Assembly (NCBI GenBank): GCA_021324155.1
Contig: JAJPJQ010000040.1
Span: 1 to 64,000 of the forward strand
Direction: 5' to 3'
Length of the DNA: 64,000 nucleotides
Source of the DNA: Pseudomonadota bacterium
Lineage (GTDB): Bacteria > Desulfobacterota > Binatia > UBA9968
Part shown: positions 8,889-27,872 of the stretch, one piece after another
Layout of the letters: the number at the start of each line of letters is the position of its first letter
How positions within the stretch are numbered: position 1 is the stretch's first letter
Program-made: the position numbers and the translations under genes
Notes under the pieces: model-generated
What the model saw: the letters and a program-made list of their open reading frames with translations, nothing else
What the model was told of the DNA's origin: nothing
Databases searched by the model: none

Positions 8889-8912
8889 AATAAAATCAGG
8901 AGTTTACGCGAA

Positions 8913-11232: not shown

Positions 11233-11241
11233 CCGGTCGCC

Positions 11242-12363
11242 TCACGCCGAGAAGCGCAACGGCGCGGCGTCGGCGCGCCTCGTCTGCGCATAGATGGCGA
11301 TCAACTCGTGGACGCGGTGCGCCGCCGTATGGCGCTCGAGAATCGTCGCGCGCCCGTGCCGCGCTAGCGCGGCGGCGCGATCGGGGTCGTCGAGCAGCGC
11401 GCGCAGGTGGCGCTTCATGTCCGCGCCGTCGGCCGCGACGAGATAATCTTCTCCATCCGTGAAGAGCCCCTCGCTGTCGCGCCACGGCGAGCAGACGAGC
11501 GGCATCCCGCAGGCGAGCGCCTCGAACGGACGGATCGTGGGAATGCCCGGCAGCGCGTGGGTGTAAGGGCGGCGGTGGATGTGCACGGTCAGGCGAAAGC
11601 GCGCGAAAATCTCCGGCACGCGATAATTCGCGACCCAGCCGCCGTATTCGATGCCCGATTTCTTGAGCGCGTCGAGGGCGGCGGCGGGATAGCGCACGCC
11701 GTAAACGCGAGCTTTCAAGCCGAGCGCGCGAACGGGCTCGAGAAGAAATTCCTCCAACTCGGCGGTGCGCTCGCCGTCGCCCCAGTTGCCGATCCAGACG
11801 AGATCGCCGTCTTTTTCGGCGCTCTCGACCGGATAGAAGGTCCGCACGTCGGCGGCCTCGTGCCATACCCAGACGCGCCGCGCCCAGCCGCGCGACTTAT
11901 AGATGCGCGCGATTGCCGCGCCATAGGCGAGCACGCCGTCGTAGCCCGAAAGATCGTACGCCGCCATCGACTCAGGCTGGGTAACCGAGCGATGGTGCGT
12001 GTCGTGAAAGAAGAGCGCGTAACGGCCGCGCGTCTTGCGGTGCGCGCCGAGCGTGCGCACGAGCGCCGGCTCGCTCCATTCGTGCGCGATGACGAGATCT
12101 GCCCCGGCCAGCGCGGCATCGAGGTCGAGGCTCTCGGGCCGGTAAAAAACACTTTCGAGTCCGGGGTAGGCGCGCCGGAACTCCTCTATCGGGGTTTCGC
12201 CGTGCTCCGCGATGAGATGACTGAGGCTCCAGCCATCCTTCGGTTCGTAGATGGCGATCTCGTGGCCGCATTCTTTCAGCTCCCGGGCCACGCCGCGGAG
12301 AAAATGCGCGTTGCCGTGGTTCCAATCGGACAAAAGCGAGTGGTAAAAAAGAACGATTTTCAT
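11242..12363 (-). CDS. CgeB-like glycosyltransferase
   Basis: 373 aa; opens KIVLFYHSLLSDWNHGNAHF and RGVARELKECGHEIAIYEP. The second domain has HALPGIPTIRPFEALACG and CSPWRDSEGLFTDGEDYL, a standard GT4/CgeB nucleotide-sugar region with the conserved Glu. More divergent than the other three CgeB-like enzymes: the central segment reads ALFFHDTHHRSV. Its ATG lies immediately after the stop of the upstream GT4 gene, so the pair is probably translationally coupled. Substrates unknown. Confidence 0.85.
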   Translation of the reverse strand: MKIVLFYHSLLSDWNHGNAHFLRGVARELKECGHEIAIYEPKDGWSLSHLIAEHGETPIEEFRRAYPGLESVFYRPESLDLDAALAGADLVIAHEWSEPALVRTLGAHRKTRGRYALFFHDTHHRSVTQPESMAAYDLSGYDGVLAYGAAIARIYKSRGWARRVWVWHEAADVRTFYPVESAEKDGDLVWIGNWGDGERTAELEEFLLEPVRALGLKARVYGVRYPAAALDALKKSGIEYGGWVANYRVPEIFARFRLTVHIHRRPYTHALPGIPTIRPFEALACGMPLVCSPWRDSEGLFTDGEDYLVAADGADMKRHLRALLDDPDRAAALARHGRATILERHTAAHRVHELIAIYAQTRRADAAPLRFSA

Positions 12364-13503
12364 TTACTCGACTCTCATAGAAAGATTTTTTTTTGCCGCG
12401 GCCGGGCGGCTTGGATCGTATGCGAGGCGCTCGTAGAGGCCGACATAGGCCGCGGCCATACGCTCGGGCGTGAACGCAAGCGCGTGTGCGCGCGCGCGCT
12501 CGGCGAACCATCGGCGAAGCGCGGCATCGTCGATCAGCAGCCCGATCGCCGCGGCGATACTGTCGGCATCGTCCGGCCGGGCGAACAGGGCGGCGCCGCC
12601 CCAGATCTCGCGCAGGCTCGGGATGTCGCCCAATACGAGCGCGCAGCCCGCAAGCGCGGCTTCGAGCGGTCCGTAGCCGAAAGGCTCGTAGCGCGCGGGC
12701 AGGGCGAAAATGGAAGCGCGCGCCAGCTGCGCGGCGAGCGCCGCTTGGTCGAGGCGGCCCAACAGTTTCAAAGCGTCGAGCCGGGCGGCTTTGCGGCCCG
12801 GCGCTGCGCTATCGCCCGCTGCGACGATCGGCCAGGCGATATTTTTCGCAACCTCCGTGAGCACGGCGATGTTCTTCGCTTCGTCCCACAGCCTGCCGGC
12901 GGTGAAAACGAAAGGTTCCTTGGCGGCCGGTTTAAAATGCGCCGCGGAGCGGCCGTTATATACAGGTGGAGCGGCGGCAAAGCCGCCGTAGTGCTTATTC
13001 AGATCCGCGAGCATGGCGCCACTCGGGGCGGTGACGAGATCGGCGGCGGCCAAGCCGGCCGAAACGCGCCGCTTATATTCGTCCCATTCCGCGGGCGGCG
13101 CGCTTCTTTTCACCGCTTCGAACCATGAGTAGACGCAGGAATGTGCGACGACGAGCGCAGGCGCGGGCCATGGCAGCGCTCCGTGCGAGTAGCCGTTGAG
13201 ATGCACGACCGCGGGCTCGATCTCGTCGGAGAGGCCGAGCAGCCATTCGCCGGCCGCCTCGACGTCGTTCCATGGATCGTCCATCCATTCGAGCTTGTAG
13301 GCGCTCTCGAAGACCGTCAGATTCGGAATTGCCCCCGCGGTTTTTTTTTCGCCGGCGCTCAGCGCTCTGCCCATGGTCGCGAGCGCAACGTCCACGCCGA
13401 AGCCGCCGAGCGCGCGGGCGAGCTCGAGCGCGTACGTCCAGACGCCGCCGATCGCGTCGGCAGTCATGAAGATCGGCGACGGTGCGCGGCCGGCAAGGCT
13501 CAT
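12364..13503 (-). CDS. GT4-family glycosyltransferase
   Basis: 379 aa, GT-B fold. N-terminal acceptor domain MTADAIGGVWTYALELARAL is the usual GGVxxYxxxLA start of GT4 enzymes; AHSCVYSWF follows about residue 125. The donor domain contains VFTAGRLWDEAKN and the EX7E-type region GPLEAALAGCALVLGD ... SLREIWGGAA. Length fits the family. Starts with a 4-nt overlap on the Gfo/Idh gene and ends flush with the next start. It resembles glycosyltransferases of exopolysaccharide clusters; donor unknown. Confidence 0.87.
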   Translation of the reverse strand: MSLAGRAPSPIFMTADAIGGVWTYALELARALGGFGVDVALATMGRALSAGEKKTAGAIPNLTVFESAYKLEWMDDPWNDVEAAGEWLLGLSDEIEPAVVHLNGYSHGALPWPAPALVVAHSCVYSWFEAVKRSAPPAEWDEYKRRVSAGLAAADLVTAPSGAMLADLNKHYGGFAAAPPVYNGRSAAHFKPAAKEPFVFTAGRLWDEAKNIAVLTEVAKNIAWPIVAAGDSAAPGRKAARLDALKLLGRLDQAALAAQLARASIFALPARYEPFGYGPLEAALAGCALVLGDIPSLREIWGGAALFARPDDADSIAAAIGLLIDDAALRRWFAERARAHALAFTPERMAAAYVGLYERLAYDPSRPAAAKKNLSMRVE

Positions 13504-14537
13504 TCGTTCCTCTGGTAAATGGCGTCGATCACGCGGGCGACCGCGGCCGCGCTCTCGATCGCGGGATCGAACGCCCGGCTTTCTGCGAGCCGCCCGGCCC
13601 AGTCGACGACCGCGCGCCCGCCCCAGCTGTCGGGCGGCGTGGCGATAACTTTGCGCTCCGTGCCGATAAATTCCTCGGCAATGAAATCATAGAACGAGCC
13701 GTTAACGTTCCTTAGCGAGAGACCGCCTTTGGTGCCGTAAAACGAAGCGCCGATCACGGCGTCGGCGCCGGCGTTGAGATGCCACGAGCAGACGAGATTC
13801 GCCGTCGCGCCGCTGTCGAGGCCGAGTCGCGCGGTGACGTAATCTTCCAGCCGGTGCGCTTCCGGGCCGATCGGCTTGCCTTGGGCGTAGAGGCGGCTCG
13901 ATACTTCGGTGAAGTTGGCACGCGTCATCCAAAGCGCCAGGTCGACGAGATGAATGCCGAGGTCGATCAGGCAGCCGCCGCCCGCGAGCTTGGGATCGTA
14001 ATACCAAGACTTGTCGGGGCCGTAGGCGTTATGAAAGACGAGATCCATCGCGTACAGGTCGCCGATTGCGCCGGCGTCGATGCGCTCTTTGATTTCGCGC
14101 ACGCCGCGAACGAAGCGGTACGACATATCGACGCCGAGCAGCCGGTCGGCCCGCCGCGCGGCGTCGATGACGCTCTGCGTCTCGCGCTCCGTACGCGCGA
14201 GCGGCTTCTGGCAAAACACGGCCATGTTGGCGTCGAGCGCGGCGATCGCCTGCTCGGCGTGCAGCGCGGTCGGCGTCGCGATCACGATGCCGTCGAGGTC
14301 CATGAGGAGAAGCTGCTCGAGCGACTCGCGCACGTCGGCGCCGGGGACTTCGAGGGCCGCCGCGGCCACGACGCCGGGATTCAAGTCGGCGAGGCCGACG
14401 ATCTCGGCATGGCGCGCCTCGGCGATCGATTTGAGCCGGTGCTGGCCGATCCAGCCGACGCCGAGAAACCCGAGGCGCGGGCGCGGCCTTTTGTCATCGT
14501 TTTCGGTATGTCCGTTGTTCGGTTCGGGCTCGAACAT
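13500..14537 (-). CDS. Gfo/Idh/MocA family NAD(P)-dependent oxidoreductase
   Basis: 345 aa; AGGAGG sits 5 nt before ATG 14537. Rossmann domain LGFLGVGWIGQHRL (about residues 24-37) binds NAD(P). The conserved EKP motif appears as CQKPLARTE (about 113). The C-terminal alpha/beta domain carries GGGCLIDLGIHLVDLALW, the typical GGGxxxDxGxHxxD active-site segment. Such enzymes oxidise or reduce sugars and inositols, for example 3-oxidation of UDP-sugars or scyllo-inosose/myo-inositol interconversion. With an inositol-3-phosphate synthase gene in the same cluster, either use is possible. Operon position between the phosphatase and a GT4 enzyme. Confidence 0.88.
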   Translation of the reverse strand: MFEPEPNNGHTENDDKRPRPRLGFLGVGWIGQHRLKSIAEARHAEIVGLADLNPGVVAAAALEVPGADVRESLEQLLLMDLDGIVIATPTALHAEQAIAALDANMAVFCQKPLARTERETQSVIDAARRADRLLGVDMSYRFVRGVREIKERIDAGAIGDLYAMDLVFHNAYGPDKSWYYDPKLAGGGCLIDLGIHLVDLALWMTRANFTEVSSRLYAQGKPIGPEAHRLEDYVTARLGLDSGATANLVCSWHLNAGADAVIGASFYGTKGGLSLRNVNGSFYDFIAEEFIGTERKVIATPPDSWGGRAVVDWAGRLAESRAFDPAIESAAAVARVIDAIYQRNE

Positions 14538-14545
14538 TTTTCCTC

Positions 14546-15148
14546 CTATCTGAGAATTGCCTCGGCCGAGTTGACGCAGCGGACTTTGGCCCTATGCTCG
14601 TGCAGCTCGACGATGCTGACCGATGCCGGATCGACGTCGAAGCGCAGCGAGAGATCGATCGGCACGCCGAGATAATAGGCGAGCGCGGCGCGCACCGGCT
14701 CGGCGTGCGTGACGAGCGCTACCGACGAGCTCTCATGTTCGGCACTCAGGCGCTCCATGAAGCCGACCAAGCGCGCCTGCAGCTCTAGAATCGTCTCGCC
14801 ATTGGGCACGCGCGTCATGCTCCGGACCGAGTTGAAATCGCGCCAGCGCGGAATCTCCGCAAGGTCCGCCAGCGTCTTGCCGCTCCATTCGCCGTAATCC
14901 AATTCGTCGATTTCGTGCGCCACGACCGCTTCACGGCCGAGCATCTCCGCCAGAGGGCGCGCCGTCTCGCGCGCGCGCTCGCGCGGGCTCGTGTAGACGG
15001 CGGCGATGTCTTCCGCCGCGAGCCGCTGCGCTAGGCGCGCGGCCTCGGCGCGGCCGGCGTCGGTGAGCGAGACGCCGTCGAGGCGGCCGGCAATGCGCCG
15101 CCCGATCAGCGCCGTCGCGGCGTGGCGTATGAGAAAGAAGCGCGTCAT
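14546..15148 (-). CDS. Histidine phosphatase family protein
   Basis: 200 aa. ATG 15148 follows AAGGAGG and overlaps the stop of the HAD gene by 4 nt. The phosphate-pocket motif is IRHAATAL (family RHG, here RHA), with ELDYGEWSGKTL and the second-histidine segment VALVTHAEPVRAAL. Fits alpha-ribazole-phosphatase/phosphoglycerate-mutase-like phosphatases (usual 190-220 aa). In this operon it most likely removes phosphate from a sugar or inositol phosphate, which is inference. Confidence 0.88.
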   Translation of the reverse strand: MTRFFLIRHAATALIGRRIAGRLDGVSLTDAGRAEAARLAQRLAAEDIAAVYTSPRERARETARPLAEMLGREAVVAHEIDELDYGEWSGKTLADLAEIPRWRDFNSVRSMTRVPNGETILELQARLVGFMERLSAEHESSSVALVTHAEPVRAALAYYLGVPIDLSLRFDVDPASVSIVELHEHRAKVRCVNSAEAILR

Positions 15149-15843
15149 CCCGCCCTCCTTAGCTCGAGATTGCGGCAGACGTCGAAGAGCGAATGAACGA
15201 CGTCGATGTCCGCGCGCGGCGCCGCGCCCCTGCGGTCGAGCCAGAACGTGCGCATGCCCGCGGCGCGGCCGGCGAGCGCATCGTGGTCGAGCCGGTCGCC
15301 TATATGAAAACAGTTTTCCGGCGCGGTTCGCGCCTGCTCGCACGCGGCACGGAAAATGCGCGTGTCGGGCTTCGCCGCGCCGGCTTCTTCGGAGACGACG
15401 ACGATCGGAAAATAGCGCGCGATGCCGGTTGCGGTGAGCTTCAGCCGCTGCTGAGCGGCCGTTCCGTTCGAGATGATGCCGCAGGTGTGACCGGCAAGCA
15501 TCTCAAGGGCCGGCAGCACGTCGGCGAACAGCGACCAGGCGTCGCGATAGCGCTGCTCGTAAAAGTCGAACACGCCGTCGATCTCCGCGTCGCTCATGCG
15601 CTCGGCGCGCGCGCCGAAAAGCTCGCGGATGCGGCGGCGGCGCGTCTCTTGAAACGGCGCGAGCCCGTCGAAGAAAAGCCGCACGTGCTTTTCTCTCAGC
15701 GCGCGCCACGCGCCGCAGAACTCCGGCAGCGCATAGGGGCGATCGAGCCAGCGGCCGTAGCGGTCGAGAAAGTCGACGGCTGCGGCGGCCTCGGCGCTGC
15801 GCTGATCGAGCAGCGTCTCGTCGATGTCGAAGAAAATCATCAC
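15145..15843 (-). CDS. HAD family hydrolase
   Basis: 232 aa, class I HAD. Motif I IFFDIDETLLD with the DxDxT nucleophile (residues about 5-9), motif II GIISNGTAAQQ, motif III lysine in AGAAKPDTRIF and motif IV HIGDRLDHDALAG. A C1-type helical cap lies between motifs I and II (RYRDAWSLFADVLPALEML). Resembles YjjG/REG-2-like phosphatases; the substrate is probably a small phosphoester. Coupled by 4-nt overlaps on both sides, placing it with an acyltransferase and a second phosphatase. Confidence 0.88.
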   Translation of the reverse strand: MMIFFDIDETLLDQRSAEAAAAVDFLDRYGRWLDRPYALPEFCGAWRALREKHVRLFFDGLAPFQETRRRRIRELFGARAERMSDAEIDGVFDFYEQRYRDAWSLFADVLPALEMLAGHTCGIISNGTAAQQRLKLTATGIARYFPIVVVSEEAGAAKPDTRIFRAACEQARTAPENCFHIGDRLDHDALAGRAAGMRTFWLDRRGAAPRADIDVVHSLFDVCRNLELRRAG

Positions 15844-16820
15844 GCCGCCGCCTCCGTTTGACGCGCGCGCCGGAAGCTGCGCCGGAACGTCGGCCGGTCC
15901 TCGGCGCCCCAGAAATATTTGTAGCGCTCACCGCCGCGGAGGAAATCGAAGGCTTCCTCGCCTTCGGCAATCGCCCGCTCGATGGCGTGGCCGAGGATGA
16001 GCGCGCCGGGGCTTATGTCGCGCAGCCTCGGCTCGAAGCCGCCGAGGTAATAGTAAGTGCGGCGGCGGTCGGCAAACCCATACAAGACGGCCGCAGCGGT
16101 GGCGCCGACGCGAAGCCGGTAGAGCCGCAGCAGGCCGGCGGCGAGCAGCCGCGGCGCCGCCGCGCGATGAAAGCGCTCGACGGCCGGATCGGCCAGGACG
16201 CCCCGGCCTCCGCGCGCGCGCCAAGCTGCGGCGTGAAGACGAAACAGGTCGTCCAAGAACGCATCGACGTTCGACGCGTCGGCGCACGCGAATTCGACTT
16301 CGCCTAGGCGCTCCGCGCGCCGGTGATAGTAGCGGATATTCGCCGTTTGATGCGGTGGGATTGACGCAGCGACCCCCTGTGAGTCCAAGCGCAGGACCGG
16401 ACAGACTTCATCGGCTTCCGTTGCCGGCGTCCACGGTTTTGTCTCCACCCAGCGGGAGAAGCCGGGCAGGCGGTCGAGATCGATCCGAGCGACCCGGCAA
16501 TGCGATAGCGTTTTGAGAGCGCTGTCGAGCGCCGGAGCCGCCGACGATTCATCGAAAACGCCGTCTTGATAATCGCTGACGCCGCCGCCCATCAGTGCGA
16601 GCCGCTCCCGGTGTTGGACGAACGGGAGCAGCGCGGCGAGCCGTCCGTCGCCGCGCACAGCGACGACAAAGGCATCCCGGTCGGCGAAATGCCGCTGCCA
16701 CGGAATCAGCCACGCCGGATGCTGAAACGGCGTCGTATTGGAGGCACGCTCCCACAATTCCGCCCACTCGGGCGCGAGCGCTTCCAGGCGTGCGGTTGTG
16801 GTGGCGATCTCTACGTCCAT
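15840..16820 (-). CDS. GNAT-type (BioF2-like) acetyltransferase
   Basis: 326 aa from ATG 16820, which overlaps the GT4 stop by 10 nt. The frame is open farther upstream but only antisense to GT4. The N-terminal half (WAELWERASNTTPFQHPAWL) is the usual opening of FemAB/BioF2-like double-GNAT proteins. The second half has FRLHAAAWRARGGRGVL, AAAVLYGFADRRRTYYYLGG and a C-terminal FDFLRGGERYKYFWG, the signature end of this family. Members transfer acyl or aminoacyl groups to glycans and peptides. Its place next to a PIG-L deacetylase suggests re-acylation of a freed amine. Confidence 0.85.
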   Translation of the reverse strand: MDVEIATTTARLEALAPEWAELWERASNTTPFQHPAWLIPWQRHFADRDAFVVAVRGDGRLAALLPFVQHRERLALMGGGVSDYQDGVFDESSAAPALDSALKTLSHCRVARIDLDRLPGFSRWVETKPWTPATEADEVCPVLRLDSQGVAASIPPHQTANIRYYHRRAERLGEVEFACADASNVDAFLDDLFRLHAAAWRARGGRGVLADPAVERFHRAAAPRLLAAGLLRLYRLRVGATAAAVLYGFADRRRTYYYLGGFEPRLRDISPGALILGHAIERAIAEGEEAFDFLRGGERYKYFWGAEDRPTFRRSFRRARQTEAAA

Positions 16821-17881
16821 GCGGCGGCTCCGCTGTCGCGCTGCGGCGATCGCCGCGCGATCTGCGCGTAGCGTTGGAGATATTGGCCGGTCATGCGCTC
16901 GGCCGAGAAGCGCCGGCGCGCCGCGTCGCGGCACGCGTCGGGGTCGAGGGTATCGGCGGCGCCGATCGCGTCGGCCATCTCGCGCGCATCGCGCACGAGA
17001 AAGCCGGTGCGGCCGTCCTCGACGATGTCGGCGAGCGCGCCGGAGGGAAACGCGATCACCGGCGTGCCGGCGGCGAGCGCCTCCATCGCCGCGAGCGAGC
17101 TCGTTTCGGGCGCGAGGCTCGGCGCCAGCAGGCACCGCGCCGCCGCGAGCAGCCGCCGCTTGCGCTCGAAATCCGCGGGACCGATGAAGCGGCGATTCTG
17201 GTCAAGCGCGGGCGCGATCTCGCGCCGGAAATAATCTTCGTGTGTCTCGTAGCCGAAGAGCGGGCCGGCGAGCACCATCGGCACGCCGGCGCGCTTGGCG
17301 GCCGCGAGCGCGAGGTGAAAGCCTTTTTCCGGGCAGATGCGGCCGAGCGCCAGCGCGTACGATTCTTTCATGCAATGCGTTTGCAGCCGATCGACCGGAA
17401 CGCCGTTCTCGATCGCCGGCAAAAGGCCGGCGCTCGCCGGGCACTGGCGCTCTTCCGCCTGCGAGACGCAATGGAGGAAAGTATCGGGCCGCGCGAGCGC
17501 GAATATCTTCGCCGGATACCACGACGGCGGCAGGTGCAACGTCGCGAGCGCCGGCACGCCGGCATCCGGCAGGTAGGCGTGGAAATCGATGCCGTGAAAG
17601 TGGATGAGATCGACCGCGAACGCGTCGAGCGTTTCCATGATTGCGCGGCGCATCTCGTCCTCGGCGCGCCGCAGCGCTTCGGCGCCCAATTTTCCCCGCG
17701 GCCGGGCGATCGTTCTCAAAATCCCGGCCGTGCGGGAGCCGTCTTCTGCGATCACGATCGACGTGTGTCCGGCGCTGACGAGCGCGGCGTCGATGAGCGT
17801 CATAACCTGCTCGGCGCCCCCGGTGGCGTCCGGCCCTACGGGCGCGAGTGGATACGCGATGTTGAGGACGGTTAGGTTCAT
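16811..17881 (-). CDS. GT4-family glycosyltransferase
   Basis: 356 aa from ATG 17881 (4-nt overlap with the PIG-L stop). N-terminus MNLTVLNIAYPLAPVGPDA then GGAEQVMTLIDAALVSAGH, the GT4 GGxE glycine loop. Donor domain: LALGRICPEKGFHLALAAAK and ETSSLAAMEALAAGTPVIAF, with the conserved EX7E-type glutamates, then DIVEDGRTGFLV. Related by type to MshA/PIG-A/BshA, which attach GlcNAc to inositol or malate, but also to many other sugar transferases. Direct coupling to a PIG-L gene strengthens the MshA-like idea; this remains inference. Confidence 0.87.
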   Translation of the reverse strand: MNLTVLNIAYPLAPVGPDATGGAEQVMTLIDAALVSAGHTSIVIAEDGSRTAGILRTIARPRGKLGAEALRRAEDEMRRAIMETLDAFAVDLIHFHGIDFHAYLPDAGVPALATLHLPPSWYPAKIFALARPDTFLHCVSQAEERQCPASAGLLPAIENGVPVDRLQTHCMKESYALALGRICPEKGFHLALAAAKRAGVPMVLAGPLFGYETHEDYFRREIAPALDQNRRFIGPADFERKRRLLAAARCLLAPSLAPETSSLAAMEALAAGTPVIAFPSGALADIVEDGRTGFLVRDAREMADAIGAADTLDPDACRDAARRRFSAERMTGQYLQRYAQIARRSPQRDSGAAAWT

Positions 17882-18696
17882 GCGAGGCCAAGCTCCCCCA
17901 GCGCGCGCATAGCGAGGTCGCGCCAGCGCGCGCCGTCCATGCCCCAGGAAAAATGCTCGTAGTAAGGCTTCCCGGCGTGCGGCGGCCGGCTGAAATCGTA
18001 ATCCGGGGCGGCGCGGAAGCGCTCGACGTCGATCGGAAAATCGCCGAGCACGCGCCGCTGCGTCGCATAGCAGGCAAAGAGAGCAGTCTTCAGCGCGCGC
18101 TGCTCGCCGGTGAGGACGTCGCTCGCGACATCGCCGTCGGCGGGCAGGAAAGCGCCCGCTTCCATGCCGCCGCCGGCAGCGGCATGGTAAGACGTCATCT
18201 CGAGGATCGCGGGCGCTGGTCGATCCGTCTTCGCCAGCAGCCGGCACGCGGCGCGGACCGCGAGCGCCGTCGCGTCGTGGTCCGGGTGGCCGCCCTCGTA
18301 AGCGTGCGTCACGACCGCGTCGGCGGCTCCGCTGCGCAGAAATGCGGCTAATATATGGACGAGCGCTACCAGGTTCGCCGAGGCTTCCTGATCGACGACT
18401 TTAATCTGATAAAGATTCGGCGGCGCGACGCCGGCGAGCGCGAGCGCCGTCGCAAGCTCCGCGCGCCGGACGCGCGCATATTCTTCGCGCGAAGCGCAGC
18501 CGGCCTCCGCGGCGTCGACGCCGCCGCGCGGCGCGCCGTCGGTCACGCAGATGAAGCGGGCGGCGGCGAGGCGCGCGAGACGTCCGCCGGCGCCGATGCT
18601 CTCGTCGTCAGGATGCGCGGCGACGACGACGAGAGCCGGTCGCTTGCCGCGTCCGGTCGCGAGCCATTCGAGTAATTCGATCGCGCCGCGCCGCAT
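17878..18696 (-). CDS. PIG-L family (GlcNAc) deacetylase
   Basis: 272 aa. The zinc-site motif AHPDDE is at residues 27-32, and the second ligand motif EGGHPDHDATA at about 135; these are the LmbE/PIG-L catalytic signatures. Enzymes of this family remove acetyl from GlcNAc-inositol (MshB), GlcNAc-PI (PIG-L) or GlcNAc-malate (BshB). First gene of a tightly coupled PIG-L/GT4/acyltransferase/HAD/phosphatase block. Length fits the family. Substrate not proven from sequence. Confidence 0.9.
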   Translation of the reverse strand: MRRGAIELLEWLATGRGKRPALVVVAAHPDDESIGAGGRLARLAAARFICVTDGAPRGGVDAAEAGCASREEYARVRRAELATALALAGVAPPNLYQIKVVDQEASANLVALVHILAAFLRSGAADAVVTHAYEGGHPDHDATALAVRAACRLLAKTDRPAPAILEMTSYHAAAGGGMEAGAFLPADGDVASDVLTGEQRALKTALFACYATQRRVLGDFPIDVERFRAAPDYDFSRPPHAGKPYYEHFSWGMDGARWRDLAMRALGELGLA

Positions 18697-18697
18697 G

Positions 18698-19630
18698 CTA
18701 ACCTGCCCTCACTCCTCCGGCGGAGCGCGCGGTCGCGCGCGCACCGGGCGCATAGCGCCGCGTCATGCGCGCGCAGAAATCCGCGTACTCGGCGATATTT
18801 TTCGGCGGGCTCGTGTGATGCGGCCGGATGCCGCGGCTCTCCGGCGTAAAGCAGAAGGTAAGCGTCACGTGGAACGGCTCGAGCGCGCGCATTTGCCGGT
18901 CGAACCATTCGAGCGCGTCCGGCCGCAGGCTATCGGACCAGCTGAGCCCCGTGCGCAGATAGCGCACGCCCAATCTTTTGAGCCAGCGCACCGCGTCGTC
19001 GAGACGATGATCCTGAAAGTGAAACCATTGGCACACGCCGAGCTCCGGCGTGTAGCGGCTGAAATGCTCGAGCGCGAGCTTCGGCGCGCCGTCCTCGCGC
19101 AGCAGTCCCATGTAGAAATGCCGGTAATACGACGAGCCTTCCGCCTCGCGGTGGCGCGTCGTCGCGGGCCACGCGCGTGGCAGGTCGAAGAGGCTGTACC
19201 AGTGGATGCGCTCCGCGCTGCCGGCGAGGAGCTCGGCCGTGCGCTTGAGACCCCATTCCTGCACCTCTTCGGCGCCGAAGCTCGACACGCCGACTTCGGA
19301 GATCCAGATCGGCAGATCCGTCACGGCGCGGATCTCGTTGATCTTGTCCGGCCATTCGTGAATCGTCCAGTGGTTCCAGTCGAGCGGAAAGCCGTGCAGC
19401 GCGACGGCATCGAGGCGATCGAGCGCGCCGTGCCCGATCATGTTGCGGATGAAATTCGCGTCGATCGGCGAGATGCCGCCGAGCAGGCGCATCACGCGCG
19501 GGTTCTCCGCCGCGACCGCCTCGGCGGCGAGCTTCACCATCGCGGCGTACGTGCGCCATTCAGGATCGATCTCGAAATCCCAGTGCGATTTGTTGTTCGG
19601 TTCATTCCAGAGCATCACGGCTTCGATCAT
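18698..19630 (-). CDS. Glycoside hydrolase-like protein, circularly permuted (beta-xylosidase-like)
   Basis: 310 aa from ATG 19630 (4-nt overlap with the methyltransferase stop). It begins inside a TIM barrel: MIEAVMLWNEPNNKSHWD carries the NEP acid/base Glu at about residue 10, and LPIWISEVGVSSFGAEE (about 125) carries the nucleophile Glu. At about residue 200, after the usual barrel end (LFDLPRAWP, YYRHFYMGLL), comes a segment that belongs at the start of the barrel: WFHFQDHRLDDAVRWLKRLG then FHVTLTFCFTP. Comparison with the GH domain of the fusion at 24574-26760 shows the order is swapped. From memory, proteobacterial homologues annotated as beta-xylosidase share this order. No signal peptide; cytoplasmic. 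Confidence 0.75.
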   Translation of the reverse strand: MIEAVMLWNEPNNKSHWDFEIDPEWRTYAAMVKLAAEAVAAENPRVMRLLGGISPIDANFIRNMIGHGALDRLDAVALHGFPLDWNHWTIHEWPDKINEIRAVTDLPIWISEVGVSSFGAEEVQEWGLKRTAELLAGSAERIHWYSLFDLPRAWPATTRHREAEGSSYYRHFYMGLLREDGAPKLALEHFSRYTPELGVCQWFHFQDHRLDDAVRWLKRLGVRYLRTGLSWSDSLRPDALEWFDRQMRALEPFHVTLTFCFTPESRGIRPHHTSPPKNIAEYADFCARMTRRYAPGARATARSAGGVRAG

Positions 19631-20376
19631 AAGGACTCCAGCGAAGGGCGCTCGGCGCGGCGGCAGACGTAAACCTCGCGCTCCGGCCGGTCGAGAATTT
19701 CGAAGCCCGCCGCGCGGAGCATTGCCTCGGCGCAGGCGCGATTGGGGATCCACCAGTTGGTCGGATCGTGCGCGTATTTGCGCTCGACGAAATAGAGGCT
19801 CGGATACCCGGGTTGCTCGAACGCGCCGTCCTCGAAAAATTCGTAATCGTCGCTCAGCGGCGTGACTTCCGCGCTGCCGCGCAGCATCGACTGAAAGACC
19901 ATTAAATCCTTCGCGACATGCTCATAAATGAGATCGAGCGCGAGCAGGGGATGGCGCAGATGGTAGAGGACGCCCAGGAACAGAACGAGGTCGAACTTCT
20001 CGCGCAAGGATGCGATGTCGTAGACGGAGATTTTAGAAAATTCAATTGCCACGCCGCTCACCTCGGCGGCGAAGCGCGCCTGCGCGAGATATTCGTCCTC
20101 GGTGTCGATCGCCACGACGCGCGCGGCGCCGCGCCGTTTCATCTCGATCGAGTAGAAGCCGGCGTTGCAGCCGATGTCGAGCACGCTTTTACCGCTCAAA
20201 TCGTCGGGCAGGGCGTGCGCGAAACGCCGCCATTTGACGCGCGGATAGTCGCCGAGAAAATGATCCGGCGCGGTCGCGGTGCCCGCGAGCTCGAGGTTAT
20301 GAAACCACGGCCCCAGCTCGCGCACGCGGCGCGCGACTTCCGCCGCGGTGAGTCCGTTCATCGAGGCGCGCTTCAT
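19627..20376 (-). CDS. SAM-dependent methyltransferase (TIGR04290-like)
   Basis: 249 aa. Class I Rossmann motif SVLDIGCNAGFYSIEMKRRG (about residues 63-82) binds S-adenosylmethionine; the acidic end of strand 2 is VVAIDTEDEYLAQ; then FDLVLFLGVLYHLRHPLLAL. The N-terminus ELGPWFHNLELAG and the CmoB-like middle match, from memory, the Rta_06860-type methyltransferases (TIGR04290) that occur in conserved glycan clusters. The substrate is probably a sugar or glycan hydroxyl. Coupled by 4-nt overlaps to the nucleotidyltransferase upstream and the glycosidase-like gene downstream. Confidence 0.85.
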   Translation of the reverse strand: MKRASMNGLTAAEVARRVRELGPWFHNLELAGTATAPDHFLGDYPRVKWRRFAHALPDDLSGKSVLDIGCNAGFYSIEMKRRGAARVVAIDTEDEYLAQARFAAEVSGVAIEFSKISVYDIASLREKFDLVLFLGVLYHLRHPLLALDLIYEHVAKDLMVFQSMLRGSAEVTPLSDDYEFFEDGAFEQPGYPSLYFVERKYAHDPTNWWIPNRACAEAMLRAAGFEILDRPEREVYVCRRAERPSLESL

Positions 20377-21134
20377 GACCCGCTGCCTCCGTAGGCGCGC
20401 GCCGGCTTGCGCTCGCGCTGATTGAGCAGCCAGATCGCCTCGCGATAGCCGTTGAGCGTGCCGACGTCGACGTAGGCCTCGCCGGCGCGGACGGCGGTTG
20501 CCTGTCCGCCCGCGGCGAGATACGCGTTCACCAACGTGCCGATATAGACATCGCTCTCGTCACGCTCGCGCCACAAACGATGAAGCTCCTGCAGGACGGC
20601 GCCGGGCATCTGAAACGCGCCCCAGATCCAATGCGACGCGGCATTTTTCTGCTTCACCTGAATCTCGCTTACGCGGCCGTCCCCGTCGGCGACCACGGCG
20701 TCGAACATCTCCGGCCGCTCGACGGGAAAAAGCAGGAACGAAAGCCGCCCGGCGGGGAGCGCCCGCAGCCCGTCGGACGGGAACCAGATCGTATCGGGCA
20801 GACCGATCGCGACCGTTTCATCGGCGCGGATGAGCGGCAGCGCCCGGAAGATCGCGTCGCAAAGTCCCGACGGATTCGGCTGCACGACGTAACAAAGATC
20901 GGCGGAGCCGACGCCGCCGCCGTAATATTCCATGATGTCGGATTTTCCCGGCGCGATGACGAAACAGATTTTATCCACGCCCGCGGCAAGCAGGCGGTCG
21001 ACGAGATATTCGCTGACCGCGCGCGGGCGCTCGACGGCGCCGTCGGCGCGGCTGCCGACAGGGAGCAGCTCTTTCGAAAACGCGAGCGGCTGGATCCGGC
21101 TGCCCGCGCCCGCGGCGGGAATGACGCCCCACAT
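20373..21134 (-). CDS. Sugar-phosphate nucleotidyltransferase
   Basis: 253 aa. The N-terminal nucleotide loop IPAAGAGSRIQPLAFSKELL is the GxGxRxxPxT..KxL signature of NDP-sugar pyrophosphorylases. VVQPNPSGLCDAIFRAL and GLPDTIWFP (the metal Asp segment) follow, and VDVGTLNGYREAIWLL ends the catalytic domain. The protein would activate a sugar-1-phosphate for the cluster's transferases. No left-handed beta-helix tail. Base specificity is not readable by eye. Operon with the methyltransferase. Confidence 0.88.
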   Translation of the reverse strand: MWGVIPAAGAGSRIQPLAFSKELLPVGSRADGAVERPRAVSEYLVDRLLAAGVDKICFVIAPGKSDIMEYYGGGVGSADLCYVVQPNPSGLCDAIFRALPLIRADETVAIGLPDTIWFPSDGLRALPAGRLSFLLFPVERPEMFDAVVADGDGRVSEIQVKQKNAASHWIWGAFQMPGAVLQELHRLWRERDESDVYIGTLVNAYLAAGGQATAVRAGEAYVDVGTLNGYREAIWLLNQRERKPARAYGGSGS

Positions 21135-21137
21135 GAT

Positions 21138-22262
21138 TCAGCTCTCCGCCTCGAGGCGGCGCGGCGCGGCCTTGGACGACGCGGCTTTGCGCGCCTGCGA
21201 TCTTACGTCTCCCAGTAGCTCTTCCAGCTGGCCGGCGCGGCGCGCGGCGCTGTGTTCTTCAAGCACGCGTGCGCGGGCGCGAGCGGCGATGCGCTTCATC
21301 TCTTCATCGCTCATCGTTAAGGCATCCATAGCTTCTTCGCTGCTGCGCGCGACGAGGATCTCGTCGCCCGGCGCGAAGAAATCATCGAGACCTTCCCAAG
21401 CGTCGCTCAATATCGGCGTGCCGCAAGCGGCGGCTTCGAAAAGACGGCCCGACGGGCAGTAGCCCATGCGCGCCATCGCGCGGCGCGTGACATTGAGCGT
21501 CAAGCGCGATGACGAATACAGCGCCGGATGCTCGGGCGGCGCGATGTGGCGCACGAAATAGATATTTTCGCTCCAGGGGAAATCCTGCGGATACTGCGCG
21601 CCCGCGATAAGAAAGCGAAATCCGGGAAGCCTGCGTGCGGGCTCCAAAAAAAGCATGTCGAGCGCGGCTTGGCGGTCTTCGGCGTACGTCCCGATATAGG
21701 AGAGGTCGGCGGCGTAGCGCGGCGCCGGCGCGCTTGGCAGGTAAACGTCGCCGTCGACGCTGCCGTAGAGCGCTGCGACGCGGCGCGCGCCGAGAGAGGT
21801 TTGCAGCGCGTCGAGCGCGCCGCCGCCGGTGAAGCTCAGGACCAGGTCGAAATCGGCGAGGCCGCGCGGACCGATGTAGTCGACACGGCGGCCGCGCTCG
21901 ATCGCGTCGAGCGTCACCGGCGTGTCGAGATCGTAGAAAACCGAGAGCGGCGCGGCGGCATCGAAAATCGCCTCCGCCGCGGCAACGCCGTCCGGGCAAT
22001 ACGACGTAACGATCGCGGCATCGGCGTCCGCGAGGGCGCGGCGCGCCTCGGGCAGCGCCACTGCCCAATGGGGGTAAACTTTTAGCTCGCCGCCGGGAAG
22101 CTCATACAGGTCGCGGTGCGCCGCATAATAGGGGACGTCGCGCTCGAAAAAGACGGTCCGGTGCCCGCGCGCCGCGAGTGCGCGCGACAGACCGCGCCAA
22201 AGCGTCGCGTGTCCATTTCCCCAAGAAGAACTTATCGTGAGCCCGAAAATGACGAGTTTCAT
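21138..22262 (-). CDS. CgeB-like glycosyltransferase
   Basis: 374 aa, GT-B type. Starts KLVIFGLTISSSWGNGHAT then RGLSRALAARGHRTVFFE; the C-domain has MGYCPSGRLFEAAACGTP and SDAWEGLDDFFAPGDEI. Clear paralogue of the cluster's last gene (9083-10156), sharing the FERDVPYYAAHRDL and FYDLDTPVTLD segments. The C-terminal 30 residues are Ala/Ser/Lys-rich and unique. It follows ino1 after a 113-nt gap that holds two inverted arrays of a 7-nt repeat. Confidence 0.86.
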   Translation of the reverse strand: MKLVIFGLTISSSWGNGHATLWRGLSRALAARGHRTVFFERDVPYYAAHRDLYELPGGELKVYPHWAVALPEARRALADADAAIVTSYCPDGVAAAEAIFDAAAPLSVFYDLDTPVTLDAIERGRRVDYIGPRGLADFDLVLSFTGGGALDALQTSLGARRVAALYGSVDGDVYLPSAPAPRYAADLSYIGTYAEDRQAALDMLFLEPARRLPGFRFLIAGAQYPQDFPWSENIYFVRHIAPPEHPALYSSSRLTLNVTRRAMARMGYCPSGRLFEAAACGTPILSDAWEGLDDFFAPGDEILVARSSEEAMDALTMSDEEMKRIAARARARVLEEHSAARRAGQLEELLGDVRSQARKAASSKAAPRRLEAES

Positions 22263-22282
22263 CGCTGCGTTTGTGCCGGGCG

Positions 22283-22370
22283 GTTTCTGGTTTCAAGTTT
22301 CTGGTTTCATGAAGAAGGGTGTGCGAAAGGCGATCTGTCGTCTTGAAACTTAAAACCTGAAACTTGAAAC
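22283..22370. repeat. Two inverted arrays of a 7-bp repeat
   Basis: Left array 22283-22310 is four head-to-tail 7-mers: GTTTCTG, GTTTCAA, GTTTCTG, GTTTCAT. Right array 22343-22370 is four 7-mers of the complementary type: TTGAAAC, TTAAAAC, CTGAAAC, TTGAAAC. A 32-bp spacer separates them, and the 12-bp arms 22290-22301 and 22359-22370 are perfect complements. The transcript could fold into a long hairpin between ino1 and the next gene, where it might terminate or attenuate transcription. Confidence 0.8.
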
Positions 22371-22375
22371 TGTTT

Positions 22376-23500
<1,125 letters not shown>

Positions 23501-23550
23501 TTACCTGTCCCCCTCTCATCTTCTTTGCGCGTCTAAAGTTCTTAGCGCTT

Positions 23551-24498
23551 TTACGCGCGAATCCAAGACTTCAAAAACCCCTCGGGGCGCTCCTCGAGCG
23601 CCGCGAAGGCGGCCGGAAAATCGTCCAGCGAAAACGCGTGCGTGTACAAGAAAGACGGATCGATGCGTCCTTCGGCGACGGCGGCCGCCGCGGCGCGCAT
23701 GCCGTCGACATAAATCCGCGGATCGCGCTCATGCGCGTTCACCACGTCGATGCCGCGCCAGTTCCACAGCTGCATGTCTATCTTGCGCTCGCCCTGATGA
23801 TATCCGGCGATCACGAGCCGGCCGCGTATACGCGTGATGCGGCTCGCGACGTCGAGGGCCGCCTGCTCGCCGGCCGCTTCGACTACGCAGTCGGCGCCTT
23901 TGCCGGCGGTAATGGCCATGAACTCGGCAACCGGGTCGGAGCCTTTGAGGCCGATCGTCGCCAAAGCCCCGGCGCTCCGCGCGATGTCCAACGCGAAAGG
24001 CCGCCTCGACAGCGCGATGACGAGCGCGCCGGCGCGCGACGCGAGCTCGGCGATGACGGCGCCGATAAAGCCGACGCCGACGACTGCCACGGTCTCGCCG
24101 GCGCGGATGCCGCTGCGGCGAAAGGCGTTGACGGCGCACCCCAGCGCCTCGCCGGGAAATATTGCCGTGCCCGGCGGCGCGGCGACGATCTCCGAGCCTT
24201 GCGCGATATCGTACTCGGCATAGGCGTGGCCGGAGAGAAAAGCGACGCGATCGCCCGGCGCCGCCGAGACAACGTCTTTGCCGACGCCGTCGATGACCCC
24301 CCAGCCTTCGTGACCGGGCGCGCCAGGCGGCAAGGGATATTCGAACCAAGGGCGGCCTTGCCAAACCGGCAGATTTGAGCCGCATACGCCGCAGCCTTCG
24401 AGCCGGACGCGCACCTCGTTCGGCCCCGGCCGCGGCAGCGGCACCTGGAGGGTTTCCGCCCGCCGCGGCGCGACGATGCGCACGGCGCGCATGCGCAT
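23551..24498 (-). CDS. Zinc-type medium-chain alcohol/sugar dehydrogenase
   Basis: 315 aa from ATG 24498, with GGAAG upstream. GroES-like domain: LEGCGVCGSNLPVWQG, where the catalytic Cys sits in GVCGSN, and APGHEGWGVIDGVG with the GHE motif. Rossmann domain: VAVVGVGFIGAVIAELASRAG. The structural-zinc four-Cys lobe is not seen, and the chain is shorter than usual (about 340), so it may lack the structural zinc. Probable oxidation of an alcohol, sugar or inositol. From memory, such MDR genes recur next to epimerase/glycosidase pairs of this cluster type. Confidence 0.85.
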   Translation of the reverse strand: MRMRAVRIVAPRRAETLQVPLPRPGPNEVRVRLEGCGVCGSNLPVWQGRPWFEYPLPPGAPGHEGWGVIDGVGKDVVSAAPGDRVAFLSGHAYAEYDIAQGSEIVAAPPGTAIFPGEALGCAVNAFRRSGIRAGETVAVVGVGFIGAVIAELASRAGALVIALSRRPFALDIARSAGALATIGLKGSDPVAEFMAITAGKGADCVVEAAGEQAALDVASRITRIRGRLVIAGYHQGERKIDMQLWNWRGIDVVNAHERDPRIYVDGMRAAAAAVAEGRIDPSFLYTHAFSLDDFPAAFAALEERPEGFLKSWIRA

Positions 24499-24573
24499 TT
24501 CGGCTTCCGGCTCGCCTTCCTTTCTACCCGTTGATTCCCGTTGCGATAACATGCTTCGATCGGACCGGCGCAT

Positions 24574-26760
24574 CTAAACCCGCGAATCGGCCGAAACGCC
24601 CGCGCGGGCGGCGCCGCGGCGGACAATCCCGCACCGGCGCGTCCCGCGTTCGGGAGCGCGCGCGGTTCTCAGCCATTGATACAGCCGCTTAACCCCTTCG
24701 AGCGGATTCACTTTCGGCCGCCAGCCCGTCGCGCTGCGGAATTTTCGCGTGTTCGAGACATAATAGCGTTGATCGCCGGGGCGCCACTCGCTGAACTCGA
24801 TGCGCGGCCGCGCGCCGTGGAGCTCATCGATCATCTTGAGAAGATCGAGCAGGCTGATCGCCCGCTCGGGGCCGCCGCCGATATTGAACGCCTGTCCCGA
24901 CAAAGCTTTCATGCTGGCGCGCGCCGCCATGAAAGCGTCGACGAGATCGTCGATATACAGGATGTCGCGCACCTGCCGGCCGTCGCCATAAATCGTGAGC
25001 GGCCGGTCCTCGAGCGCGCAGATCAAAAAATGCGCGACCCATCCCTGATCTTCGTTGCCCATTTGATGCGGGCCGTAAATGCAGCTCATGCGGAAAACGA
25101 GCGCTTGCAGGCCGAAGGTGCGCGCGTAATCGATGATGTACTCGTCGGCCGCGCCCTTCGAGCAGCCGTATGGGCTATGGAGATCGAGCGGCCGGGACTC
25201 GTCGATGCCGCTCTCGCGCAGCGGCGCGTGCACAGGCTGATACGAGCCGTTCTGCATGGCGAGCTCCACATCATCGAGACCGCCGTAAACTTTATTCGTC
25301 GAAGTAAAGATAAGCGGCGCGGGCGCGTCCGAGCCGCGCAGCGCCTCGAGCAGATTCAGCGTGCCGAGCGCGTTGACGTCGAAATCGTGGCGCGGGTTGG
25401 CGAGGCTGGTGGTGACGGCCACCTGAGCCGCGAAGTGATAGATCTGGCTCGCGTTGCGCACGGCGCGCCGGACGGCATAGGGATTGCGCGTATCGGCGAA
25501 TTCCACTTGCAGCCGCTGCGGATGCGCATCGAGGAGCCAGCGAAGGTTTTTTTCCGCCCCGGGGCGCGAGAGATTGTCGAAAACGAGCACGCGCTCGCCC
25601 TGGTTCAGCAGACGATGCGCGAGATTGACGCCGATAAAGCCGGCGCCGCCCGTGATAACGACCGGCGGGCTCGGCTTGGCGCCGCGTTTTTTGACCGACT
25701 GCGGCTCGAGCGCGTTGCCGACGGCGTCGAGGCCGCCGTCGGCCCACATGCGCGCGAGCAGTTTCGGCTCGCCGTCGCTGCGATGAAGTCCGAAGTGATA
25801 GTCGCGATCGTCGGCGTGAAAGCCGTCGCGTGTCGACAACTCGGGGTTCAGATCCCGCGCCGCGTACCAGTAAATCCGCTCGACGGGCGCTGCGAGCGTA
25901 TCGGCGAACGCGCGCATCTGCTCGTATTCGTCATGGCGCCAGGTCGAATATCCCGTAGCGGTGATCCAGATCTCGGCGCCGGAGCGGTGCTGATCCAGGA
26001 GCTGCTGCACGTTCTGGATCAGCGCCGGCCATCCCTCCCAGTTCGTCTCGGAAATGCCGGGAAACGAGTGAATGCCGACCGCGTCGATGAAGTGCATCAC
26101 GCCGCGCCGGAACATGAGCTCGAGCCAGTTCGGGTCGAAGGCGCTCTGGGCGGCGAGAATCGTCCGCTTGCCGCGCCGCTGCGCCCAGTAAGCGGCGCCG
26201 CCGATCATGGCGCAGAACGTCTGCCAGTGCGGATCGAGCGTGCGGTCCCATTCGCCCATGCGATCGGGCTCGTTCCACAGCTCGATCCATTCGAAGCAGC
26301 GCCCGAGCCGCGTGATGATGACGTCGATGAAGTCGCCGTACGCCTTCGGGTCCCACGGCGGCGCGGAAACGCGCGGCGCCACCGCCTGGGAAGGGGGAGA
26401 ATAAAGGACGCACGGCACGACGTTCACCTCGGCGGCGAGCCGCGGCAGCAGCCAGCTGTACCAGGCTTCGCCCTCGGGCGTTTCGAAATCCGCCCACGAG
26501 ACGAGCGTGCGCAGGTCCGCGACTTTCAAGGCGCGCAGCTCGGCGAGCGCCGTTTCCACGCCGTGCTTGTCGCCGAGACGGAAATATTCGACGCAGCCGA
26601 TCCTGGCGCCGCGCGTGCCGTCGCTGTCCGGCGCGTGCAAACTCTTGTGTCTAATGACTTGAGCTTCGACGGCGTGATCCTTCTTCTCGCTACCCACATG
26701 GAAAGCCCTACCGTTGGTGTGTCGATTGTTATGGCCTGCGGTTGGCCCGCCTCTTTTCAT
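24574..26760 (-). CDS. Glycosidase-like domain fused to NAD-dependent sugar epimerase
   Basis: 728 aa from ATG 26760, which overlaps the upstream stop (ATGA). Residues about 50-345 form a TIM-barrel glycosidase-like domain in normal order: ALAELRALKVADLRTLVSW, then WIELWNEPDRMGEWD with the NEP acid/base Glu (about 163), then IWITATGYSTW (about 264), where the nucleophile Glu expected from the paralogue is Ala. Residues about 365-705 form an extended SDR epimerase: VITGGAGFIGVNLAHRLL, FDNLSRPGAEKNL, TSTNKVYGGL, YGCSKGAADEY (Tyr/Lys pair), closest to CDP-paratose 2-epimerase types. The fusion is one uninterrupted frame. It may epimerise a nucleotide sugar while the barrel binds a glycan. Confidence 0.85.
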   Translation of the reverse strand: MKRGGPTAGHNNRHTNGRAFHVGSEKKDHAVEAQVIRHKSLHAPDSDGTRGARIGCVEYFRLGDKHGVETALAELRALKVADLRTLVSWADFETPEGEAWYSWLLPRLAAEVNVVPCVLYSPPSQAVAPRVSAPPWDPKAYGDFIDVIITRLGRCFEWIELWNEPDRMGEWDRTLDPHWQTFCAMIGGAAYWAQRRGKRTILAAQSAFDPNWLELMFRRGVMHFIDAVGIHSFPGISETNWEGWPALIQNVQQLLDQHRSGAEIWITATGYSTWRHDEYEQMRAFADTLAAPVERIYWYAARDLNPELSTRDGFHADDRDYHFGLHRSDGEPKLLARMWADGGLDAVGNALEPQSVKKRGAKPSPPVVITGGAGFIGVNLAHRLLNQGERVLVFDNLSRPGAEKNLRWLLDAHPQRLQVEFADTRNPYAVRRAVRNASQIYHFAAQVAVTTSLANPRHDFDVNALGTLNLLEALRGSDAPAPLIFTSTNKVYGGLDDVELAMQNGSYQPVHAPLRESGIDESRPLDLHSPYGCSKGAADEYIIDYARTFGLQALVFRMSCIYGPHQMGNEDQGWVAHFLICALEDRPLTIYGDGRQVRDILYIDDLVDAFMAARASMKALSGQAFNIGGGPERAISLLDLLKMIDELHGARPRIEFSEWRPGDQRYYVSNTRKFRSATGWRPKVNPLEGVKRLYQWLRTARAPERGTRRCGIVRRGAARAGVSADSRV

Positions 26761-27872
26761 ATCGTCAGTCCTCTTATCGCCAGCTGCGCGCTCGCCGTTT
26801 CGACATAATCGTCGGCGGCGCGGCCCTCGAGCCATTCGGATAATTCCAAGATGCCGTCCTCCAGCTCGACCTTCGGACTGTAGCCGAGAATCGAACGCGC
26901 GAGGCTTATGTCGGCGAAGCAGTGGCGTATATCCCCCATGCGGTATTTGCCGACGATTACGGGTTCGATCTCTTTATTGAGAGCGTGCGCCATGCACTCG
27001 GCGATTTCGCGGATTGTATAAGCGCGGCCGCTGCCGATATTGAAGACGCGATCCTCCACACCGGGCGTCTCGAGACACAGCCGGCACGCGCGCGCAACGT
27101 CGTGCGCGCTGACGAAGTCGCGCTTCTGCAGACCGTCTTCGAAAATCAACGGCGGTTTGTCGTTCAGGTAGCGCGAAGCGAAAATCGCGAGCACGCCTGT
27201 GTACGGATTCGACAGCGACTGTCGCGGACCGTAGACGTTGAAGAAGCGTAGCGCGACCGTCGGTATATTGTAGGCGCGCCCGATCATCAGGCACATCCGC
27301 TCCTGCACATACTTCGACAGCGCGTACACGGAGCTCAGGCACGGCGTTTTCGTTTCCGGCGTCGGAACCGGAACGAGCGGCCGCTTCTCCTCGTCGAGCA
27401 GCTCCCACATGCCGCGCTTGAGCTGGTCGATGGTGCGATCCGGCGCCGAGCGGACGCGGCCGTCGACACCGCGATAGAGTCCTTCGCCGTAAATGCTCAT
27501 GCTCGACGCAACAATCAATTTCTCAACCGGGCTTTTGATGAGTGCCTCCATCAGCGCCGCGGTGCCGAGGTCGTTGACGCCGGTGTAGCGCTCGACTTCA
27601 TACATGCTCTGGCCGACGCCGACGGCGGCGGCAAAGTGATAGACCGCGTCGACGCCGCGCAGCGCGCGGTCGAGCTTGTCGCGATCGCGGACGTCGCCGA
27701 CGATGATTTCGATGTCTTTGTCGAGATAGGCGGGCGGCGCCTGCGACTCGCCGTGAACCTGCGCCGACATGCAGTCCATCGCCGTAACGCGATGGCCGTG
27801 CTCCAATAGTTCATCCGCGACGTGCGAGCCGATAAAACCGGCGCCGCCGGTGATCAAAATCCGTTTGCTCAT
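26757..27872 (-). CDS. NAD-dependent epimerase/dehydratase
   Basis: 371 aa starting MSKRILITGGAGFIGSHV; the glycine-rich NAD site is at residues 9-15. YHFAAAVGVGQSMYEVERYT and IVASSMSIYGEG precede the catalytic YALSK (about residues 180-184). RFFNVYGPRQSLSNPY and the C-terminal substrate domain are typical of UDP-glucose 4-epimerase and UDP-glucuronate decarboxylase-like extended SDRs. First gene of the leftward cluster; the promoter should lie in the 325-bp region upstream. Exact sugar unknown. Confidence 0.9.
   Translation of the reverse strand: MSKRILITGGAGFIGSHVADELLEHGHRVTAMDCMSAQVHGESQAPPAYLDKDIEIIVGDVRDRDKLDRALRGVDAVYHFAAAVGVGQSMYEVERYTGVNDLGTAALMEALIKSPVEKLIVASSMSIYGEGLYRGVDGRVRSAPDRTIDQLKRGMWELLDEEKRPLVPVPTPETKTPCLSSVYALSKYVQERMCLMIGRAYNIPTVALRFFNVYGPRQSLSNPYTGVLAIFASRYLNDKPPLIFEDGLQKRDFVSAHDVARACRLCLETPGVEDRVFNIGSGRAYTIREIAECMAHALNKEIEPVIVGKYRMGDIRHCFADISLARSILGYSPKVELEDGILELSEWLEGRAADDYVETASAQLAIRGLTI

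Follow-up and report, generated by a model that had tools for sequence, protein, structure and literature searches.

Loss of the catalytic nucleophile in a glycosidase-like barrel fused to a CDP-tyvelose-2-epimerase-like protein in Binatia-type genomes

The passages on PslG catalysis in PMC6813494 and PMC9075953 name E165 and E276 as its catalytic residues, and those of PMC6813494 describe the catalytic residues as required for Psl production. The abstract of PMC9075953 poses as an open question what a glycosidase does in polysaccharide-synthesis clusters. The other described systems closest to the present locus are the CDP-tyvelose 2-epimerases and the TIGR04290/TIGR04295 (B12_rSAM_oligo) neighbourhood of alphaproteobacteria. 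Pseudo-glycosidases as such are already known. Literature searches on the fusion, on pseudo-glycosidase/epimerase combinations, on natural glycosynthases and on natural permutation gave, among the papers listed, nothing naming the system described here, and no paper naming TIGR04290 was found in the literature searched.

The window, that is, the whole stretch of 64,000 nucleotides that was analysed, carries a gene joining a glycosidase-like barrel to a short-chain dehydrogenase/reductase (SDR) half:

24574-26760 (-): fusion gene, GH39/PslG-like barrel plus CDP-tyvelose-2-epimerase-like SDR (open reading frame, translation, Pfam)
25711-26610 (-): predicted glycosidase-like (beta/alpha)8 half, residues 76-375 (AlphaFold2 strands, family-profile match to PslG)
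26266-26277 (-): WNEP, residues 187-190, with the acid/base Glu189 kept (sequence, alignment, profile)
25957-25959 (-): codon GCT for Ala293, in the place of the catalytic nucleophile, end of beta7 (sequence, alignments, model, profile)
24661-25671 (-): SDR half with GGAGFIG, STNKVYG and YGCSK (Pfam, fold and sequence matches)

The fusion resembles PslG of Pseudomonas aeruginosa (5bx9, 4zn2) in its barrel, its WNEP acid/base site and its nucleophile strand, and in both systems the glycosidase gene lies within a polysaccharide-synthesis cluster. It differs in having Ala at the nucleophile position and in being fused to an NAD-dependent epimerase. With CDP-tyvelose 2-epimerase it shares the SDR half with STNKVYG and YGCSK, whereas the N-terminal barrel sets it apart. 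The fusion, a glycosidase barrel joined to a nucleotide-sugar epimerase, presents a probable pseudoenzyme within a two-enzyme protein, and it amounts to a natural experiment on the reason for having a glycosidase in a polysaccharide-synthesis cluster.

The longest open frame of the fusion covers 24574-26835 (-) and encodes 753 residues, and the residue numbers used here follow this frame (P0001). The start is likely the ATG at 26760, residue 26 of the frame beginning at 26835, because the gene would then share four bases (ATGA) with the end of the SDR gene upstream, stop codon included. Residues 392-653 match the NAD-dependent epimerase family of Pfam. The motifs GGAGFIG, STNKVYG and YGCSK are taken to be the glycine-rich NAD motif and the Ser/Thr-Tyr-Lys active site. 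By sequence the SDR half matched the CDP-tyvelose 2-epimerases 1orr and 9rl0 (E=1.6e-83 and 2e-86), which were far ahead of other SDRs among the matches listed, and by fold it matched CDP-tyvelose 2-epimerase with a target-normalised TM of 0.94 and 43% identity. It is thus, by homology, a CDP-tyvelose-2-epimerase-like nucleotide-sugar epimerase.

For the barrel half, the AlphaFold2 model (mean pLDDT 84, pTM 0.78, most blocks of this half above 85) predicted the (beta/alpha)8 barrel characteristic of clan GH-A. Strands beta1-beta8 were predicted at domain residues 19-23, 48-54, 79-85, 124-127, 165-168, 193-198, 229-235 and 261-265, the domain number being the frame number minus 59. Glu130 in this numbering comes after beta4, and Ala293 falls in beta7. 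No glycosidase model matched the fusion in Pfam at E<=1, a PDB search with the single barrel sequence gave nothing significant (PslG at E=0.14), and Foldseek with the whole fusion model gave solely SDRs among the matches listed. A profile of 26 fused barrels matched PslG (5bx9/4zn2) with E=1.4e-5 and the GH39 beta-xylosidases 2bs9 and 1px8 with E=1.8e-3. In the profile alignment the WNEP of the fusion lies on the WNEP of PslG and its beta7 'TE' column on the 'TE' of PslG, so that Glu189 and residue 293 align with Glu165 and Glu276 when our own reckoning of 26 for the offset between chain and published numbering is applied. Of the two features that mark GH39/PslG-type catalysis, the first, an acid/base Glu within NEP where beta4 ends, is present, and the second, the nucleophile Glu at the end of beta7, is absent in all four Binatia rows.

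The sequence-only reading had described the fusion as keeping WNEP and as carrying Ala (GCT) where Glu was expected, and both statements were borne out at the positions listed above. The WITATG strand lies at 25951-25968 (-), in one open frame with WNEP and the epimerase part. In the alignment of normal-order barrels (A3), position 293 is Glu in every one of the 22 rows that do not belong to the Binatia set. The four that do have Ala, with the codons GCT, GCT, GCC and GCT, and their genomes span two genera. The W, S and W columns flanking the position are invariant in 26/26 rows.

Three technical causes of the Ala were considered and rejected. A frameshift or assembly error at the codon is ruled out by the identical Ala in three other genomes, and a Glu shifted by one residue by the lack of any acid in the WITATGYST strand. 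An artefact of alignment with the permuted paralogue, described below, is ruled out by the agreement of the 22 normal-order homologues.

Both catalytic Glu were kept in 43 of the 50 fusion rows, from many phyla. The alignment held 49 rows, 42 with both residues and seven without; the fiftieth, L167, was the sixth fusion of a further search and was added by hand, its SDR motif being lost. The rows began with the 29 loci of a genome-contig scan (Glu in 25, Ala in three Binatia-type loci, no readable site in the remnant L052), to which were added five of the six fusions of that further search, two ordinary fusions and three with odd sites from profile searches, and 13 plasmid records of the 52 having at least 80% coverage. 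L052, a remnant without WNEP, and the unfused barrels L047, L048, L049 and L051 stand outside these counts, and L024-L026, whose frame lengths and motifs make them look identical to the genomes of L010-L012, were counted once. As some rows are closely related (Dyadobacter, Rhizobium), the counts are of rows and not of independent events. Because the scan took ELWNEP and GEAWYSW-like peptides as its seeds, it under-samples fusions that lost WNEP; the three found came from the profile searches. Among cultured relatives the intact form is carried by, for example, Rhizobium etli and Dyadobacter. A wide search of the phylum around Dyadobacter found distant barrels only, which look secreted among the matches listed, and a search in the family of genome G935 found no extra fusion. 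The homologue alignment proposed with the sequence-only reading thus shows Glu to be common at the position: homologues overwhelmingly keep it, and neither a different nucleophile among them nor a majority of members active with the Binatia residue was encountered.

Catalytic residues have been lost from the fusion several times and in different ways. L055 and L056, from the same phylum as the Binatia set, have WANP with Gly at the nucleophile position and CFNP with the beta7 Glu retained, respectively. In L110, from the order of Aquibium, the WNEP loop is deleted and the beta7 Glu retained. Since no lesion is common to Binatia, L055 and L056, one shared loss cannot explain them. On a tree made from the SDR half only, which keeps the trait out of the tree, the loss label requires three changes, two of them forced by well-supported (starred) branches.

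The mirror image is found in L167 (G1148:C7). Its barrel has both Glu and is 60% identical to that of L166, whereas its SDR half is 29% identical, with STNKVYG replaced by SSYHVYG and YGCSK by VRMATLR. By these motifs the epimerase half appears dead and the glycosidase half intact, and the locus shows that either half can be retained after losing its own chemistry. Together with the permuted paralogue, this recurrent and reciprocal loss is the more surprising part of the results. A 251-residue barrel remnant without WNEP lies at L052:7968-8720 (Algoriphagus pacificus), a locus in which no match to the SDR half was found.

Among the 42 intact rows, 63 columns were near-invariant (each at least 95% identical). 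The Binatia rows keep 55, 55, 55 and 56 of them, Glu189 and His256 included, and L055, L056 and L110 keep 38, 29 and 44. Seven columns, W84, L140, A167, N191, N192, P232 and E293, are changed in all four Binatia rows, and of these W84, N191 and P232 are altered in all four lost lineages. At least three shared columns would arise by random draw with P=0.007, given the same set sizes, the seven common changes as the Binatia set and columns treated as equally changeable. In the window the substitutions are:

26584-26586 (-): Tyr84, Trp in all 22 other A3 rows (alignment)
26260-26265 (-): Asp191-Arg192, immediately following WNEP, where nearly all intact rows have Asn-Asn (alignment)
26140-26142 (-): Ala232, Pro in nearly all intact rows (alignment)

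These parallel pocket changes are read here as a sign that sugar binding and cutting probably no longer constrain the domain. The sequence-only reading had proposed that the domain may bind a glycan rather than cut it, possibly guiding the epimerase half. Of this, the loss of the nucleophile is supported, and retention as a non-cutting domain agrees with the low dN/dS and the predicted intact fold; the binding part is weakened, because W84, N191, N192 and P232 changed alongside the nucleophile, which argues against the old glycan still being bound in the old way. A lectin-like pseudo-glycosidase, which would hold the old glycan in the old pocket and present it to the epimerase or localise the enzyme, fits the 55-56 of 63 columns kept by Binatia, Glu189 and His256 among them, and the low dN/dS. 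This reading is unlikely, however: four pocket columns went with the nucleophile, three of them in every lost lineage, and the substrate of an epimerase is a nucleotide sugar, not obviously the glycan of the barrel.

The changed columns bear also on continued catalysis. Asp191, Asp107 and Asp/Glu118 are the only acids new to the Binatia rows, present in all four and rarely elsewhere, and Asp191 sits two residues past the acid/base Glu, so one of them, as a relocated carboxylate, or else substrate assistance could in principle replace the nucleophile. Asp191 lies, however, on the acid/base loop and not across the pocket, the corresponding residues of the lost rows L055, L056 and L110 are E, R and E, and the changes seen in parallel around the pocket suggest relaxed constraint; a still catalytic barrel is considered improbable.

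In the four Binatia rows the barrel had dN/dS values (Nei-Gojobori) of 0.05-0.15, and the SDR half had values of 0.07-0.12. The pair L010-L011, with a dS of 0.12, gave 0.11 and 0.08, and it is the sole reliable pair, dS being near or beyond saturation in every other. Purifying selection on the barrel has been as strong as on the SDR half, and the barrel is thus maintained in Binatia. The domain can nevertheless be dispensable, as the barrels of L055 and L056 are eroded and the barrel half is missing altogether from the SDR orthologue of Azospirillum lipoferum (L190), an SDR that nests with starred support among alphaproteobacterial fusions. The coordinates 2995-4062 and 7998-8927 belong to this locus. 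A functionless barrel that persists as a decaying passenger, the fusion being young or deletions rare, would account for the erosion in L055, L056 and L110 and for the epimerase retained alone in Azospirillum. It accords poorly with the similar constraint on the two halves in Binatia, also in the closest pair, and with an Ala common to two genera, and it is rated as rather unlikely, slightly more so than glycan binding.

Replacement of the nucleophile by Ala with the acid/base residue intact is the classic engineered glycosynthase change, and Ala293 with Glu189 gives just this arrangement, a small residue at the nucleophile position and the acid/base kept. With Glu189 as general base, the barrel might transfer the sugar of an alpha-linked nucleotide sugar, made by its own epimerase half (a nucleotide-sugar epimerase by homology), to an acceptor; in Binatia an enzyme that cut glycans would then have become one that makes them through the loss of its nucleophile. 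Such a natural glycosynthase is very improbable, as L056 and L110 lost the acid/base residue and L055 lost both, which a glycosynthase could not afford. No natural example was found among the papers listed from the openly licensed literature.

The reading of the fused barrel as a pseudo-glycosidase is well supported. As the best explanation, held with modest confidence as somewhat on the probable side, a barrel that has lost its nucleophile would be retained in its folded form, no longer hydrolysing, to partner the CDP-tyvelose-2-epimerase-like half. It would once have been a PslG-like enzyme, and in an ancestor of the Binatia-type genomes the change from Glu to Ala would have removed the usual residue for the covalent glycosyl-enzyme intermediate and ended retaining hydrolysis. 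The epimerase half would make a nucleotide sugar for the glycosyltransferases of the cluster, with the barrel most likely being a module that docks or stabilises the epimerase and the neighbouring glycosyltransferases. The fusion is expected to act in the cytoplasm because the barrel is joined to an NAD enzyme. The dependence of PslG on its catalytic pair shows that relatives do not, as a rule, act without catalysis. Should the glycan still have to be trimmed by cutting, a paralogue about 6 kb away could do this:

18698-19630 (-): circularly permuted barrel with both catalytic Glu (sequence, matches; Pfam Glyco_hydro_cc 6.7e-5)

This paralogue begins at beta4 (MIEAVMLWNEPNN) and has beta1-alpha3 at its C-terminus, the order being beta4-beta8 followed by beta1-beta3. 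Its WNEP is at 19598-19609 and its WISEVG at 19289-19306. The latter had served in the sequence-only reading as the yardstick for the missing Glu, and the comparison remains valid despite the permutation because normal-order homologues give the same answer. Outside the window the permuted order is seen, for example, at L029:313-1197, and the Dyadobacter counterpart is a clean 294-residue protein of the same order and 70% identity. Among the matches listed, beta4-beta8 precede beta1-beta3 in at least 45 genomes (hand count), and an unfused normal-order relative is present in six (L015, L047, L048, L049, L051 and L089). Unfused relatives of normal order occur in Planctomycetota and in other groups, and several of them adjoin the methyltransferase listed below. 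A PDB search with the single permuted sequence gave nothing significant. The model from four sequences had low confidence (pLDDT 68) and matched many TIM barrels, and the predicted fold can be called no more than 'TIM-like'.

Of the genomes searched, six of the seven with a lost site and nine of the 26 with an intact one have a second homologous barrel in permuted or normal order (Fisher one-sided p=0.023 raw, 0.019 with L167 added), an association that includes just two to three tree-independent pairs and is suggestive only. For genomes G011, G017 and G021 the query was a single protein instead of the profile; G021, which is 84% complete, is the sole lost-site genome without a second barrel. 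In the genome of the window there is also a third, distant homologue (L020, G000:C47:63520-64374) with a signal-like N-terminus, YNEE in place of WNEP and WINEMG at beta7.

The surroundings of the fusion include the following genes:

26757-27872 (-): SDR gene directly upstream (homologue adjacent in 25/25 fusion loci examined)
23551-24573 (-): Zn-dependent alcohol dehydrogenase-like gene, downstream (matches and locus comparison)
22376-23500 (-): inositol-3-phosphate synthase (TIGR03450, 532.6 bits, cut-off 638)
19627-20376 (-): TIGR04290-family methyltransferase (387.9 bits, cut-off 300)
9083-13503 (-): four glycosyltransferase genes, three PF13524/CgeB-like and one GT4 (conserved beside the fusion in many phyla)

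Besides the Binatia set, the 25 fusion loci represent Cyanobacteriota, Planctomycetota, Bacteroidota, Thermodesulfobacteriota, Gemmatimonadota, Pseudomonadota and Zixibacteria. At least the homologue of the glycosyltransferase at 10129 lies downstream in 19 of them, and in the other six the DNA piece ends first. The cluster at 9083-27872, parts of which are conserved in seven other phyla, holds two SDRs, the alcohol dehydrogenase, a Gfo/Idh/MocA protein, several glycosyltransferases and the TIGR04290 methyltransferase, besides the inositol-3-phosphate synthase, a PIG-L deacetylase, a GNAT protein and a phosphatase. The inositol synthase, PIG-L and GNAT are reminiscent of mycothiol-type chemistry. 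From its genes and the family name, the product of the cluster would be an oligosaccharide or glycoconjugate.

The likeness to the TIGR04290/TIGR04295 neighbourhood lies in the methyltransferase, which passes the TIGR04290 cut-off, but no TIGR04295 match was found in the ten window proteins scanned. One cluster in Azospirillum combines the SDR orthologue with inositol-3-phosphate synthase, phosphatase, glycosyltransferases, the permuted barrel and a B12-binding radical SAM gene confirmed as TIGR04295; the barrel, annotated as beta-xylosidase, matches the second part of the query. The fusion occurs with glycosyltransferases and TIGR04290 in Rhizobium and adjoins a TIGR04295 gene in Tistrella, the family having been confirmed on the Azospirillum protein.

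Annotations in the plasmid records mostly call the fusion 'NAD-dependent epimerase/dehydratase family protein'. When the permuted barrel is annotated there, its usual name is 'beta-xylosidase', as on plasmids of Sinorhizobium, Ensifer, Azospirillum, Roseomonas and Bradyrhizobium. Opposite the fusion gene of the window there is an antisense open frame of 710 codons at 24676-26808 (+), which is probably a by-product of GC-rich codon use.
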